A stretch of DNA of 47,171 nt from a virus, in the IMG/VR virus record IMGVR_UViG_3300024520_000120, positions 1-47,171 of that record, one strand, 5' to 3'. A program made the translations under genes and the position numbers. This document shows, in pieces, positions 8,134 through 47,171 of the stretch. The notes beneath the pieces were generated by a model, which worked only from the letters and a program-made list of their open reading frames with translations, made no database searches and had not been told where the DNA came from. Numbering within the stretch: position 1 is the stretch's first letter; the number at the start of each line of letters is the position of its first letter.

Positions 8134-8209
8134 GGCGCGGTAGCTCAGCCGGTAGAGCACCCGGTTGAAGTCCGGGGTGTCGACGGTTCGATTCCGTCCC
8201 GTGCCACCA
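8134..8209 (+). tRNA. tRNA-Phe(GAA)
   Basis: The 76-base sequence folds as a complete cloverleaf: acceptor GGCGCGG/CCGTGCC (one G-U), D arm GCTC...GAGC, anticodon stem CCCGG/CCGGG with loop TTGAAGT (anticodon GAA), variable GTGTC, T arm GACGG-TTCGATT-CCGTC, discriminator A and encoded CCA. It precedes the rightward accessory genes. A TGCTACCCT element 15 bases upstream may be its promoter's extended -10. Confidence 0.95.
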
Positions 8210-42188: not shown

Positions 42189-42458
42189 ATGAGTAAAACG
42201 CCGTTTGAAACAGCACGGGAAAAGCGCGGGTGGACGTACTACGCCGCTTCGCAGCGCATGGAAGGGGTATCGGAGCAGTCGCTCAAGAATTTGGAGCGCG
42301 GGGTGACGCCACCGGATCGGGTGCAGGTCCGCACAGCAGTCGAGATCGTGAAGACGCTGTGGCCGGACGTCAGCCTCGACGACTTCTATCCGGATACGCC
42401 GCTACGCTTTGCCGCCCGCGACACGAACGCGCTCCGTCGGCTCCGCTACAGCACTTAG
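42189..42458 (+). CDS. Small HTH protein, candidate repressor
   Basis: 89 residues: TPFETAREKRGWTYYAASQR followed by MEGVSEQSLKNLERGVTPPD reads as a helix-turn-helix of the XRE class (EQSLKNLE as recognition helix), followed by a small helical tail. The ATG at 42189 follows AGGG and the octamer GTATAAAC. It is the only gene on its strand in the leftward block and diverges from the operator-bearing exonuclease promoter, the arrangement of a phage repressor. Its 3' end overlaps the converging RuvC-like gene by 57 bases. Confidence 0.75.
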   Translation: MSKTPFETAREKRGWTYYAASQRMEGVSEQSLKNLERGVTPPDRVQVRTAVEIVKTLWPDVSLDDFYPDTPLRFAARDTNALRRLRYST

Positions 42459-42926
42459 CTGATCGGCGATCGTCAGCGCGACCGCGAGCGCCTGCCACGC
42501 GTCACGCTTGATCCCGTAGAGGGGTCCCTGGTCTTTCTTCACGCCGACCGCCTTGGCCTTCCCGGGCCCGAAGCGGTCGATGATCGCCTGCCGGATGTTC
42601 GTGTCCTTCGCGCGCGGCGACTTACACAGCGCCATCTTCACGTCCATCCGGTAGAGGCCCTTCGCCGGGAACGGGCGCCAGCAGTGGATAAACTGCCCGG
42701 CCCACTGGCAGGTCTCGAAGACGGTCACCCCCACGGGCATGCCGTAGCTGGCGACCAGCTCAATCGCCAGCATCGAGGGCGGGCCCGGCATCATCCACCG
42801 CTTGAAGCGGGTGATCCGGCCGAGGAGCGCCTCGTTAGTCTCGACCCCAGCCTCCAGCGCCCGGGTCACCGGGTCGTACTCGGCCCAGCCGCTCTTCTCG
42901 GGACCGGGGTCGATCCCGAGGATCAT
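42402..42926 (-). CDS. RuvC-like (RNase H-fold) nuclease
   Basis: ILGIDPGPEKSGWAEYDPVT gives the first Asp of the RuvC/RNase H fold; MLAIELVASYGMPVGVTVFE supplies the Glu strand and GIKRDAWQALAVALTIADQL a late Asp helix. Small phage RuvC-like proteins resolve branched DNA before packaging. 174 residues is normal. The ATG overlaps the 43-residue gene stop (ATGA). Confidence 0.75.
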   Translation of the reverse strand: MILGIDPGPEKSGWAEYDPVTRALEAGVETNEALLGRITRFKRWMMPGPPSMLAIELVASYGMPVGVTVFETCQWAGQFIHCWRPFPAKGLYRMDVKMALCKSPRAKDTNIRQAIIDRFGPGKAKAVGVKKDQGPLYGIKRDAWQALAVALTIADQLSAVAEPTERVRVAGGKA

Positions 42927-43054
42927 CGGAGCACAAGCTCCCGACGCTGCTCTTTCCCGCAGGTATGACAGCGAGTCACCATCACCATTGGCTCCAGCTC
43001 GATCACGCTCTTCGTGACGTGCCCGATCAGGCGGCACACTTCCTCGGGCGTCAT
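42923..43054 (-). CDS. Small Cys-containing protein, 43 residues
   Basis: The frame MTPEEVCRLIGHVTKSVIEL ... VTRCHTCGKEQRRELVLR has ATGA overlaps at both ends (with 43051-43359 and the RuvC-like gene), which supports it despite its size. CHTCG may bind zinc with the earlier Cys. Unknown role. Confidence 0.65.
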   Translation of the reverse strand: MTPEEVCRLIGHVTKSVIELEPMVMVTRCHTCGKEQRRELVLR

Positions 43055-43359
43055 TCCGGGTCGGGCTCGTAGGGGCCCTCGTCGGGTTCGGCGGGCTCAC
43101 CCTGGAAGAGCGAGAGCTGCCCGTTGGCGAGCGACAGCTTGTACTCCTTCGGCTCCAGCGGCACCCGCTCGCGCGGCTTGAACTCGGCCTTGTAGCCGAC
43201 GATCTCGCCCTTCCGCTTGATGATCTTGAACTGCACCGTGACGCTGAAAGACGCCTCGGCCTGCCCCGCGTCCAGCGCCTCGGCGATGCGCGGCAGCGAG
43301 CCCGACAGATTGACACCGAAGTCACCCGACAGCCGGGTGACCAGCTCTCTCTGATCCAC
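43051..43359 (-). CDS. Hypothetical replication-cluster protein, 102 residues
   Basis: VDQRELVTRLSGDFGVNLSG then a beta-rich core (SFSVTVQFKIIKRKGEIVGY) and an acidic tail ending EPDEGPYEPDPE. An acidic tail after a small beta-rich domain is the plan of phage single-strand binding proteins, but this family is not recognised. GTG at 43359 has a G6 site with the octamer GTATAAAC in the spacing, like the HTH gene. Confidence 0.65.
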   Translation of the reverse strand: MDQRELVTRLSGDFGVNLSGSLPRIAEALDAGQAEASFSVTVQFKIIKRKGEIVGYKAEFKPRERVPLEPKEYKLSLANGQLSLFQGEPAEPDEGPYEPDPE

Positions 43360-43361
43360 GT

Positions 43362-44213
43362 TTATACCCCCCTCTGTGTTGGAAACAACGGTAGCACTAT
43401 ATCGGGGTCCTCGACCGGGTCCACCTTCTCCACCAGCCCAGGGGTGTCGAAGCGGCACTGCGCCCAGTCTCGCTCCAGCTCTCCCAGCTCACCTCCGGGC
43501 GACTCCCGGGACTCCAGCGTCATCTTCACCTTGACCGGGTCCCGCGTGCGCCGCAGGTACATCAGGCAGCCCGCGGCGTGCTCCACGTCGAGGCCGATCA
43601 TGCCGCCGCGCTGGTTCGTCTCGGAGAGCACCATGACGCCGATGCGCCCCGCGCTCTCCTCGCAGATCGTCTGCGCGATCCGGCAGATGTACGACAGCTC
43701 CCGCAGGTAGTCGCCGCCCGCCGACCGCGCCAGCCGGTTGATCGAGTCGACCACGATCAGCACGCGATCGGCGTCGCGGGGTGTAAACGCCATCACGTTC
43801 TGGAGTATCGCCGCGATGTTGTGCCCGTGGCGGAATCGCATGCCCCGCCACCGCTCTACGAACCAGTCCGGCGGGTCGCCTGCGGGCACCGGCCCGAGCA
43901 CGCGTGCCGCCATGCCCGCGATCAGCTCCGGCGTGTTCTCGCCGTAGGCGTAGTGTGTAAACCACCCGTGCCTCGCAGCCTCGATACTGCTGCGCACGGC
44001 GATGATCGACTTGCCGAGCTTCTTCTTCCCCGAGATGGCGGTGAAGCCATACGCCCCGCCGCTCATGTCATCCCAGGCGCGCACGCCGGACGGCCAGCGC
44101 GGCGACTCCTGCGGAATGTCCTGCGTCACGAGCCGCAGGTCGAGTTCGTCGAAGTGTGCGGAACCTTTCGAGGATGCTGTCGCCATCTGCATGATCTGGT
44201 GCAGCGTATTCAC
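43362..44213 (-). CDS. RecA-fold (DnaB/RadA-like) ATPase
   Basis: Walker A GKKKLGKS at 62-69 after MSGGAYGFTAIS, and Walker B RVLIVVDSINRL (Asp near 156), then GVMVLSETNQRGGMIGLDVE (the sensor/L2-like region) show a RecA-type core as in DnaB-family helicases or RadA. At 283 residues it lacks the DnaB amino domain. It may act as a helicase or recombination motor. The stop TAA lies in the GTATAAAC octamer (43360-43367). Confidence 0.8.
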   Translation of the reverse strand: MNTLHQIMQMATASSKGSAHFDELDLRLVTQDIPQESPRWPSGVRAWDDMSGGAYGFTAISGKKKLGKSIIAVRSSIEAARHGWFTHYAYGENTPELIAGMAARVLGPVPAGDPPDWFVERWRGMRFRHGHNIAAILQNVMAFTPRDADRVLIVVDSINRLARSAGGDYLRELSYICRIAQTICEESAGRIGVMVLSETNQRGGMIGLDVEHAAGCLMYLRRTRDPVKVKMTLESRESPGGELGELERDWAQCRFDTPGLVEKVDPVEDPDIVLPLFPTQRGV

Positions 44214-44506
44214 GCGTCTCTCCGGGGCATGTAGCTGTCAAACTCGCCCTTGTTTGCGCGCGCCCGGATCTCGTACAGCTCGACCGGGCGCAGGCGCACG
44301 ATCCACTGGAGGATCGTCCTGCGCAGGTCGCGCCGTCCGTACTGCTTCATCGACTCCCAGCGGGCGCAGGCGAACCACCACGCATCCGACTCGTCGAACG
44401 GCTCGAATAGGTCGAACAGCGGACAGCGGGTGACGACCTTCCGTAGAAACGTGTTGTCGCTCCACAGTTGGCGTACTCCATCCGACGATACGGGGGTCAC
44501 CGACAC
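44210..44506 (-). CDS. Hypothetical protein, 98 residues
   Basis: SDNTFLRKVVTRCPLFDLFE, then DAWWFACARWESMKQYGRRD: aromatic and basic, helical. ATGA overlap with the ATPase start, so it is in the same operon; unknown, maybe a helicase partner. Confidence 0.65.
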   Translation of the reverse strand: MSVTPVSSDGVRQLWSDNTFLRKVVTRCPLFDLFEPFDESDAWWFACARWESMKQYGRRDLRRTILQWIVRLRPVELYEIRARANKGEFDSYMPRRDA

Positions 44507-44820
44507 AGGGCCTCCCGTCCGAGAAACCCGTGTCGAACCAGCAGGATCGCCTGTCGCTGCTCAACCTGGGTAAGAGCCTCGCAGAGTCGAGCCCACTCCT
44601 CGCACTGCTCGCCGTGTGGCGGACCCTGTGGCTCACAGTCGCACCGCACCGTGACATGCCGCCGCATAAACCCGAGGATCTCTTCCTCGTCGGCCAGCAG
44701 CCGTAGCATGCTGCGCCGCAGGTACGTGCTGCGTGAGACAGGGAGCGGACACGCGGGTGGGTTGCTCACCCCGGGTCCTGCCTGAATTGCGAGCCCACTC
44801 CCTGCCTGCTGCACGATCAC
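44497..44820 (-). CDS. Hypothetical Cys-containing protein, 107 residues
   Basis: The core SRSTYLRRSMLRLLADEEEI and VTRCDCEP/GEQCEEWARLCEAL has four Cys. GTG at 44820 abuts a G7 run; GTG at 44769 (90 residues) has a better-spaced AGGA and may be the true start. It is the first gene after the terminator at 44842, so its transcription depends on read-through or an unseen promoter. Confidence 0.55.
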   Translation of the reverse strand: MIVQQAGSGLAIQAGPGVSNPPACPLPVSRSTYLRRSMLRLLADEEEILGFMRRHVTVRCDCEPQGPPHGEQCEEWARLCEALTQVEQRQAILLVRHGFLGREALCR

Positions 44821-44841
44821 CCCCCCGGGTCAAACGACAAA

Positions 44842-44871
44842 ACGGCCCTGGGCAACTGAGCCCAGGGCCGT
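44842..44871 (-). terminator. Rho-independent terminator, leftward
   Basis: ACGGCCCTGGGC and GCCCAGGGCCGT form a perfect 12-bp stem with a 6-base loop; read leftward the stem is followed by TTTTG. It lies after 44968-45240 and before 44497-44820. Confidence 0.85.
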
Positions 44872-44877
44872 CTATTC

Positions 44878-44919
44878 GCATCAGCGCGTAGAGGGGATCT
44901 CCATGCTGATGCGAGATCC
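44878..44919 (-). ncRNA. Competing hairpins before the terminator (attenuator-like)
   Basis: Two stems share this stretch: GCATCAGC/GCTGATGC (44878-44885 with 44905-44912) and GGATCTC/GAGATCC (44895-44901 with 44913-44919). One strand of the first lies in the loop of the second, so they exclude each other or form a pseudoknot. Their place just before a terminator suggests an attenuator or a processed small RNA. Confidence 0.45.
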
Positions 44920-44967
44920 GAAATCCGTGTTGCATCCCCTCACCTGGGCCAGCTTACGCCGTCCGGC

Positions 44968-45240
44968 TCAGCTCTGCAAGTCTAAACGCGCCTCCAGTGC
45001 TCCGAGTGTAATCGTGTCGCCTTCGCCCCGGTAGCGCACCACCATCGTGACCGAGACGCGGTTCCCGGCACGGGACTGGCCCGGCCGGGCGTTGCGCGCC
45101 ATCGTGAGCTTCTGGAAGCGGTACGCAGCGGGCAGGAGTTCTTCGACCTTCTGCCCCTGGTCGAACCCTTCCCTGACACTCGGAGAATGCCAGCGCAGCA
45201 CGAAGCCGTCGTCACTCTCCCGGTCTGCGAAGACCCTCAT
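44968..45240 (-). CDS. Hypothetical protein, 90 residues
   Basis: MRVFADRESDDGFVLRWHSP ... EELLPAAYRFQKLTMARNAR ... VSVTMVVRYRGEGDTITLGA. A small alpha/beta protein, not recognised. The ATG overlaps the stop of the Cys-rich gene (ATGA). An octamer overlaps its last codons (44980). It ends at the attenuator-like element. Confidence 0.65.
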   Translation of the reverse strand: MRVFADRESDDGFVLRWHSPSVREGFDQGQKVEELLPAAYRFQKLTMARNARPGQSRAGNRVSVTMVVRYRGEGDTITLGALEARLDLQS

Positions 45241-45446
45241 GAGGCACAGCGCCCCCACACGTCTGCATCCCCTTTCGCGCAGGTGCAGCCGATCGGGCAC
45301 TCCGAGCTGAATGCGCACGCCTGCGAGCCGCACGTCGCGCACTCGGCAGGGATGGCCCCGAGCGACAGCCCGATCGCTGCGCCGAAGACCAGGGCGGCGA
45401 ACGCCGCCAGGATCACGTTCCGGAGTCGGTGGGTCCGGTGGGTCAT
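45237..45446 (-). CDS. Secreted/membrane-anchored Cys-rich miniprotein, 69 residues
   Basis: A basic start (MTHRTHRLRN) and hydrophobic segment VILAAFAALVFGAAIGLSLG form a signal peptide or anchor. The outer part has seven Cys in 32 residues (36, 39, 44, 50, 54, 56, 67), including CPIGCTCAKG, the density of a cystine-knot or small disulfide protein. GAGGAG lies eight bases before the ATG. Target unknown. Confidence 0.7.
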   Translation of the reverse strand: MTHRTHRLRNVILAAFAALVFGAAIGLSLGAIPAECATCGSQACAFSSECPIGCTCAKGDADVWGRCAS

Positions 45447-45613
45447 GGCGTCTTCTCCTCTTCCAGCACCTCGACACAGTAGTCGATCATGCCCATCAGG
45501 AGATCCTGCATCGTCTGCTCCTGCTGGTCCGCCAGGGCCCATAGCCGCGCGTACAGCTCCTCGGAGACCCTGACCTTCACCCCCACGCGCTTCGGCATCT
45601 TGTGCCGCCCCAT
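45443..45613 (-). CDS. Ribbon-helix-helix-like protein, 56 residues
   Basis: MPKRVGVKVRVSEELYARLW then ALADQQEQTMQDLLMGMIDY: a beta-strand followed by two helices as in CopG/Arc proteins. The ATG at 45613 forms TAATG with the stop of the upstream start-less frame, indicating coupling; an internal ATG at 45598 is an alternative. Its stop overlaps the Cys-rich gene. Confidence 0.7.
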   Translation of the reverse strand: MGRHKMPKRVGVKVRVSEELYARLWALADQQEQTMQDLLMGMIDYCVEVLEEEKTP

Positions 45614-46011
45614 TATCTGGACCGCTTTCGGTCGAGCGCCCGGAGCATGTCCCGGGTGCGCGTCCACACCGGGGAGCGGCGGCGCTCCTCGGCCGTGGAG
45701 TCACTGCGAATGCCGTGGTCCGTGATCGTGGGCGGATCGGGCGTGACCTGCTGCTCTGAGCGGGCTTTCCGCATCATCGCAGCGTGGGCCGACCGCTCTT
45801 CCGCGGTCGTGTTCTGCCAGCGCGCCTTCCCGCCCCGGACGGACGCTTCGTGCTTCTGCTCCGCGGTGAACGCGGCGACGAGCGGGAGGGCCGCTACACC
45901 CTCCCGCTTCGCACGCGCCTTCTCGCGGTCTTCCGCCGTGAAGACGTAGCGGCGGCGCTGCGCCTTCGCCTTCGACTGTTTCGGGGCCCGCTGCTTAGGC
46001 CGAGCCGGGAA
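45613..46011 (-). CDS. Frame without start codon, possible +1 frameshift extension
   Basis: A frame of over 125 codons ends at TAA 45615-45613. It reads KQRAPKQSKAKAQRRRYVFT, then AFTAEQKHEASVRGGKARWQ and NTTAEERSAHAAMMRKARSE, basic repeats like those in NUMOD/HNH-associated tails. No ATG, GTG or TTG opens it before MMRK. It overlaps 45995-46528 and would be entered by a +1 shift at TTT CCC G (46012-46006), three codons before that gene's stop, giving one protein of about 300 residues. The alternatives are a sequencing indel or a broken gene. Confidence 0.6.
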   Translation of the reverse strand, partial: FPARPKQRAPKQSKAKAQRRRYVFTAEDREKARAKREGVAALPLVAAFTAEQKHEASVRGGKARWQNTTAEERSAHAAMMRKARSEQQVTPDPPTITDHGIRSDSTAEERRRSPVWTRTRDMLRALDRKRSR

Positions 46012-46528
46012 ACATCGCCTCGAAAGCGGCCTCCTTGGCCGCCTCTTCGTCGAAGCCCACGTAGACCTCGGCCATGTTGCCGTTGCGGTTGCGCCGCGTC
46101 ACCACGTACACGAGCCGCTGCTCGGTCGTGATGTGCAGCTCGCCCGTCGACGGCTTCACCGCGGCGTCGGTCGGAATCGACGTGGCCCGCCGCACCGTCT
46201 TGCGGGGGCGCTTGTTGTTGTCGCCCTGTCCCGGCCCGCCCTTGAGGTTCGCCTTGCGCATGTCCGTGTGGTCGCCGTTCACGACCCGGACGCGCGCACC
46301 GCGCACCGACAGCGACCAGCCGAGCACGAACTGCGGCATGGACTGCTGCGTCTTGCCCGACGACGTGCGCTTCTCGGAGCGCGTCAGGAGCCGGTACGGC
46401 GCCTTCTTCGTGATCGGGTTCCAGTGCCAGTCGTGGGCCTGGAGCCGCTCCAGATCGTCTGTGTCGACCTTGACGGGGTGGATGCGGCCCGACCCCTTCT
46501 CGGTGGCTGCGGTTGTTGCTATGGTCAT
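45995..46528 (-). CDS. AP2/HNH-like DNA-binding protein, 177 residues
   Basis: The opening IHPVKVDTDDLERLQAHDWH followed by WNPITKKAPYRLLTR, then RVRVVNGDHTDMRKANLKGG and late VYVGFDEEAAKEAAFEAMF, resembles phage AP2/HNH homing-endonuclease-like proteins; NGDHTDMRKANL is the second half of an HNH motif but the first His is not clear, so nuclease activity is doubtful. The ATG at 46528 overlaps the integrase stop. It has its own promoter (46566-46593). Confidence 0.65.
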   Translation of the reverse strand: MTIATTAATEKGSGRIHPVKVDTDDLERLQAHDWHWNPITKKAPYRLLTRSEKRTSSGKTQQSMPQFVLGWSLSVRGARVRVVNGDHTDMRKANLKGGPGQGDNNKRPRKTVRRATSIPTDAAVKPSTGELHITTEQRLVYVVTRRNRNGNMAEVYVGFDEEAAKEAAFEAMFPGSA

Positions 46529-47171
46529 AGCGCTGTATCTCCCGAGCAGTAGTGCTCTTCTTGGGATGTTACGCCACCTGTGGTCGGTGTCAAGCTAAAC
46601 CGTCTCGCGGCCGTTGCCTGGATAACCTCGGTGGCTCCAATGGTACGCAGGTACTTCGTGGTGGTGCTCAGGCTCGTATGCCCGAGCGCCAGCATCAGCA
46701 GGTAGGGGTCTTTCGTCTCCGAGTAGAACTCCACCGCGAAGGTGTGTCTAAACGCATGCGGGTGTACCCGCCGCGCCAGACCAGCCCGCTTGGCGAGCTT
46801 TCCGCACAAGCGCCTGACGTGATTCGCCTGCACGCGTGCCCCCGTCCGCGTCGTGAACAGGTACTCCCCTGCACACTTCTGCGACAGAAGCGGTCGTAGG
46901 TGCCGCGCAGCCCCGTAGTCCAGGGCCACCTCCCTCGGAAGGGCCCCGCGCCGAAACCCCTTCGGAGTCTCGACGCGGAGCACCAGAGCCCCGCCGTGCG
47001 GTCGCACGTCTTGAAACCGCAGCGACAGGGCCTCCGAAACCCGCAGCCCTGCCCGCCACAGAATGACGAGCAGGGCGCGATCCCGCGCCGCCGTGCCCCC
47101 TCGGCACGACGACACGAGGACCGCCGCGTCCTCTTGCGAGAGCGCGTGGGGGGGGAAGCGTCTAATCGGAG
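46525..47171 (-). CDS. int: Tyrosine recombinase (integrase), catalytic part
   Basis: Catalytic motifs of tyrosine recombinases are complete: AGLRVSEAL (Arg I), ETPKGFRR (Lys), HPHAFRHTFA (His-x-x-Arg) and LGHTSLSTTTKYL (His and nucleophile Tyr). It makes strand exchange at attachment sites for integration and excision. The frame is open through 47171 and continues at the window start to ATG 145. Total 219 residues, with no arm-binding domain, close to small XerC/phage minimal integrases. Stop overlaps the next gene (ATGA). Confidence 0.92.
   Translation of the reverse strand, partial: PIRRFPPHALSQEDAAVLVSSCRGGTAARDRALLVILWRAGLRVSEALSLRFQDVRPHGGALVLRVETPKGFRRGALPREVALDYGAARHLRPLLSQKCAGEYLFTTRTGARVQANHVRRLCGKLAKRAGLARRVHPHAFRHTFAVEFYSETKDPYLLMLALGHTSLSTTTKYLRTIGATEVIQATAARRFSLTPTTGGVTSQEEHYCSGDTAL
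46566..46593 (-). promoter_or_regulatory. Leftward promoter inside the integrase gene
   Basis: TTGACA (46593-46588), 16 bases, TAACAT (46571-46566), with CCA-CCTG-TGG (46574-46583) in the spacer. It lies within the last codons of the integrase and should drive 45995-46528 and genes beyond. Confidence 0.75.
47040..47171. repeat. Terminal overlap, right copy
   Basis: Matches 1-132 with a single difference (A at 47045). Removing one copy gives a unit of about 47,039 bases. Confidence 0.9.

Follow-up and report, generated by a model that had tools for sequence, protein, structure and literature searches.

A start-less basic coding frame behind a diverged HNH/AP2-family gene in a phage integrase operon: probably one gene split by a one-base indel

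The HNH/AP2 homing endonucleases of phages include gp47 of Bacillus phage 268TH002 and the IPA-HNH genes of ICP1 (PMC10448857). Two features of these proteins are an N-terminal VDxxDxxxLxxxxWH motif and an NGDxxDxRxxNL loop. One such gene in ICP1, gp115/gp116, has been read as a homing-endonuclease gene inactivated by a frameshift (PMC10448857). In Listeria phages PSA, A118 and A500, +1 frameshifting takes place at CCC sites in structural genes, and these sites are accompanied by an adjacent stop codon or a pseudoknot (PMC5009743). The locus described here resembles both. A gene with the motif and the loop of the HNH/AP2 family, similar to the homing endonucleases in length and end point, is followed by a coding frame in the +1 direction, and a CCC codon lies near the end of the upstream frame. 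Unlike the homing-endonuclease genes, it belongs to an integrase operon, and a frame for a basic tail comes after it.

The window, that is, the whole stretch of DNA that was analysed, is a virus record of 47171 bases. The two ends (1-132 and 47040-47171) have 126 identical bases in common and five of six more, with the repeat not starting exactly at base 1, and this shared sequence makes it probable that the genome is circular or circularly permuted. Such an exact 126-base overlap would fit a short-read de Bruijn assembly, a type of assembly in which indel errors are rare. The families matched by its portal, scaffold and capsid proteins are of the podovirus type, and the phage is of the temperate type. 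The features needed below, with the upstream gene called H and the tail frame called B, are as follows.

46525..47171, and on across the circular junction to about 150, minus strand: tyrosine recombinase (integrase) adjoining H on its upstream side, catalytic domain only
45995..46528, minus strand: gene H, 177 aa, recognised by homology to gp47 and by codon bias
45995..46015, minus strand: stretch in which the coding frame shifts from H to B, ATG TTT CCC GGC TCG GCC TAA, placed by switch-position likelihood
45613..45997, minus strand: frame B, start-less and basic, about 130 codons, +1 relative to H, with coding bias
45775..45777, minus strand: first ATG of frame B, giving a product of only 54 aa and lacking a good Shine-Dalgarno sequence
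45443..45615, minus strand: ribbon-helix-helix-like gene downstream of B (RHH_5, E=0.008, below the curated cut-off)

The ATG of the recombinase (MSPPTPIRR...) is located across the circular junction, and its stop codon is overlapped by the ATG of H. At the other end, the stop codon of B and the ATG of the ribbon-helix-helix gene form a TAATG overlap at 45613; alternatively, that gene could start at an inner ATG, at 45598. Further downstream, the same operon encodes (45237-45446, minus strand) a small protein whose N-terminal segment is hydrophobic and whose end is rich in Cys. No Rfam families were found within 44000-47171.

The minus-strand frame B is open from 46098 down to 45613. None of the codons ATG, GTG, TTG, CTG, ATT, ATC and ATA occurs in it between the upstream TGA and the ATG at 45777. 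The codon log-odds of B, calculated with a model trained on the phage's own genes, is 0.250 log-units per codon. This value lies inside the distribution for true genes (mean 0.326, sd 0.127, 266 windows) and above every one of 259 stop-free shadow windows (maximum 0.133). A GC3 frame plot agrees, with the coding frame passing from H to B and then to the ribbon-helix-helix gene. A codon-usage Viterbi path over the whole record flagged four segments without a start at their beginning, B among them; the other three were set aside as two ORFs merged into one, a segment with its start 49 bases further in, and a contig edge. In the 47 kb of the record, B is thus the one clear case of a coding segment that lacks a start. 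Its product is basic, with 33 K/R against 16 D/E in 130 residues. The original prediction had described the frame ending at 45613 as protein-like, without a start codon and coupled to the next gene by TAATG, and it was correct in all three respects.

GC-rich genomes yield long spurious open frames, and a 115-codon ORF is present on the plus strand opposite B. B might therefore be an untranslated shadow of an antisense or overlapping frame. We regard this as very improbable, as the plus-strand frames opposite B score below 0 with the codon model and B itself exceeds the whole set of shadow windows. B is a real coding sequence, and its translation, probably as a tail on H, is well supported.

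H was compared with 268TH002 gp47 (URO01842.1) by Smith-Waterman alignment. The score was 113 (z=10), against 41.6 plus or minus 7.1 in the shuffle control, and none of 1000 shuffles reached 113. gp47 had been found with a generic HNH/AP2-like query; the evidence is the gp47 alignment and not the query. Three HNH/AP2 proteins tried before gp47 gave no significant match to H; the gp47 subfamily does match. A search with hhalign against a six-sequence alignment gave a weak match. The gp47 alignment places H, as a diverged member, in the HNH/AP2 homing-endonuclease family of phages. The MHR, the DH and the N of DNR in gp47 align with MPQ, RV and M in H. The His and Asn residues of the HNH catalytic site are therefore replaced, and as a result H is probably nuclease-dead. 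The earlier label of an AP2/HNH-like gene is borne out by homology on the HNH side, with the catalytic residues lost. The AP2 side is weak: Pfam recognised neither an AP2 nor an HNH domain in H, and an AlphaFold model of the H-B fusion, which suggests strands followed by a helix in the putative AP2 part, is of low confidence (mean pLDDT 45.9).

Across the final six codons of H, the likelihood that the switch occurs at a given position varies by no more than 3.3 log-units; it drops quickly upstream, and coding is handed over from H to B without a gap. The assembled sequence of the site (45980-46030) contains TTTCCCGGC. Within it, TTT CCC G is a candidate slip or indel site, and the in-frame TAA follows three codons after CCC, as had been predicted. 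It had also been proposed that a +1 slip would leave each of the two codons able to pair again, and both do qualify. In this genome at least one codon able to re-pair at +1 is found in about 26% of random six-codon stretches and a double site in 0.9%.

From these features the original prediction had derived a possible programmed +1 frameshift. A slip of the P-site tRNA-Phe from TTT to TTC, or of tRNA-Pro from CCC to CCG, would let a fraction of the ribosomes make H with the basic tail while the others make H alone. The rarity of the double site (a chance of about 0.9% in six codons), the nearby in-frame stop and the CCC +1 sites of the three Listeria phages (PMC5009743) favor this explanation. 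Additionally, the TTT site agrees with the forward rule of PRFect (PMC10885494), the +1 A-site codon CCG being commoner than CCC, and the phage encodes its own tRNA-Phe(GAA), located at 8134-8209 on the plus strand, which would read the TTT. A phage-encoded tRNA-Leu(CAA) is present at 1359-1446 on the minus strand. The Listeria sites adjoin a stop codon or a pseudoknot, whereas no such stimulator is seen at the present site: CCC (136 of 496 Pro codons in the phage) and GGC (374 of 762 Gly codons), which would occupy the A site, are common codons, so that no stop or rare codon stands there. The downstream sequence has an ordinary fold (z about -0.3 to -0.6), and no well-placed internal Shine-Dalgarno sequence is present, the nearest AAGGAGG lying 17 bases before TTT. 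When TTCCCG gains a base by insertion, TTTCCCG is exactly what results, so the double site arises automatically from such an event and is no independent sign of programming. In the collections searched, no relatives were found that would show a conserved layout. Nothing supports programming specifically, and we consider it rather unlikely; what stands of the proposed shift is the translation of B, probably as a tail on H, on the grounds of its coding bias and missing start. It is likewise unlikely that programmed slipping equips a domesticated HNH/AP2 protein of the integrase operon, itself nuclease-dead, with a basic tail for DNA binding and so provides two forms of a regulator.

A one-base insertion is favored as the simpler explanation. 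Deletion of one T or one C from TTTCCC gives a continuous frame, and deletion of a T replaces the rare TTT (29 of 261 Phe codons in the phage) with the preferred TTC (232 of 261) and brings in CCG, the preferred Pro codon (307 of 496). On balance, it is probable that H and B are one domesticated HNH/AP2-type gene with a basic tail, and that a one-base indel, which arose recently in nature or through an error of assembly, has split it. The ancestral gene would have encoded, within the integrase operon, a single nuclease-dead DNA-binding protein of the HNH/AP2 family with a basic C-terminal tail. One base may then have been inserted within ATG TTT CCC GGC, for example by a change of TTC CCG to TTT CCC G, through a recent natural mutation or an error of assembly, and the tail would have moved out of frame. 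As sequenced, the gene would be translated no further than the end of the DNA-binding part, with the tail either missing or supplied only by rare ribosomal slips. We infer the single ancestor, the indel and the DNA-binding role from the real coding bias of B together with its lack of a usable start, from the shift of frame within the last six codons of H without a gap, from the restoration of the frame (with preferred codons when a T is removed), from the likeness of a B motif to a phage protein tail described below and from the published precedent of ICP1 gp115/gp116. In both cases an HNH/AP2-family gene has a frame break; in ICP1 the break parts HNH from AP2, whereas here it lies beyond the point at which the fold of the family usually ends.

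Several observations count against an indel in a single gene. B shows no signs of decay, and therefore an indel could only be of recent origin or an artefact. In the rest of the record the frames are nowhere else clearly broken, and this speaks against an assembly prone to errors. Finally, gp47 and its family homologues end near the end point of H, so the family does not usually include a tail. The last point would fit two separate genes, in which H ends where the family usually ends and B is a gene for a small basic protein whose start was lost or is unrecognised; a single substitution could make a start from a nearby AAG, TCG or GCG in the B frame. This is quite unlikely, as the coding bias of B starts immediately at the stop of H and no near-cognate start precedes the ATG at 45777.

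The position of a similar tail in another phage is also against two genes. The B motif EASVRGGKARWQNTTAEERSAHAAMMRKAR resembles the tail of protein WWT39892.1 of Microcystis phage Mwe-JY08, with RGGxxxWQNxTxExRxA common to both. The database E-value of this match is 7, and the likeness is taken as a lead and no proof of homology. In the Mwe-JY08 protein the tail is C-terminal to, and in frame with, a part that appears HTH-like by eye, whereas in H-B it follows an HNH/AP2 domain out of frame. Such a likeness would fit B as the tail at the C terminus of a protein that binds DNA. When IMG/VR was scanned with a DNA pattern for the motif, there were no matches.

Usable homologues of H, B or the fusion were found neither by tblastn against phages and plasmids nor in IMG/VR scans, a GTDB scan, 385 genomes of one class, or records of related phages, prophage hosts and integrase relatives. 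Consequently, no relative with the same out-of-frame layout or with a fused, unbroken one was found in these collections, which may omit very near records; the missing unbroken relative also counts against the indel. An identical contig covers 10625-24627 only, and its record has no match to the H-B locus.

If the shift is due to an indel, the locus would illustrate on a small scale how relatives of homing endonucleases become domesticated and later decay, and would warn that an insertion in a short run of bases can produce codons that look like a slip site. If it is programmed, it would be a case of +1 recoding in a regulatory/recombination operon of a phage rather than in a structural gene, with no stop at the slip site. 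Elsewhere in the record, the codon-usage path through 42402-43362 (minus strand) consists of three short frames (43056-43362, 42979-43055 and 42434-42978) and not of one 307-aa ORF.
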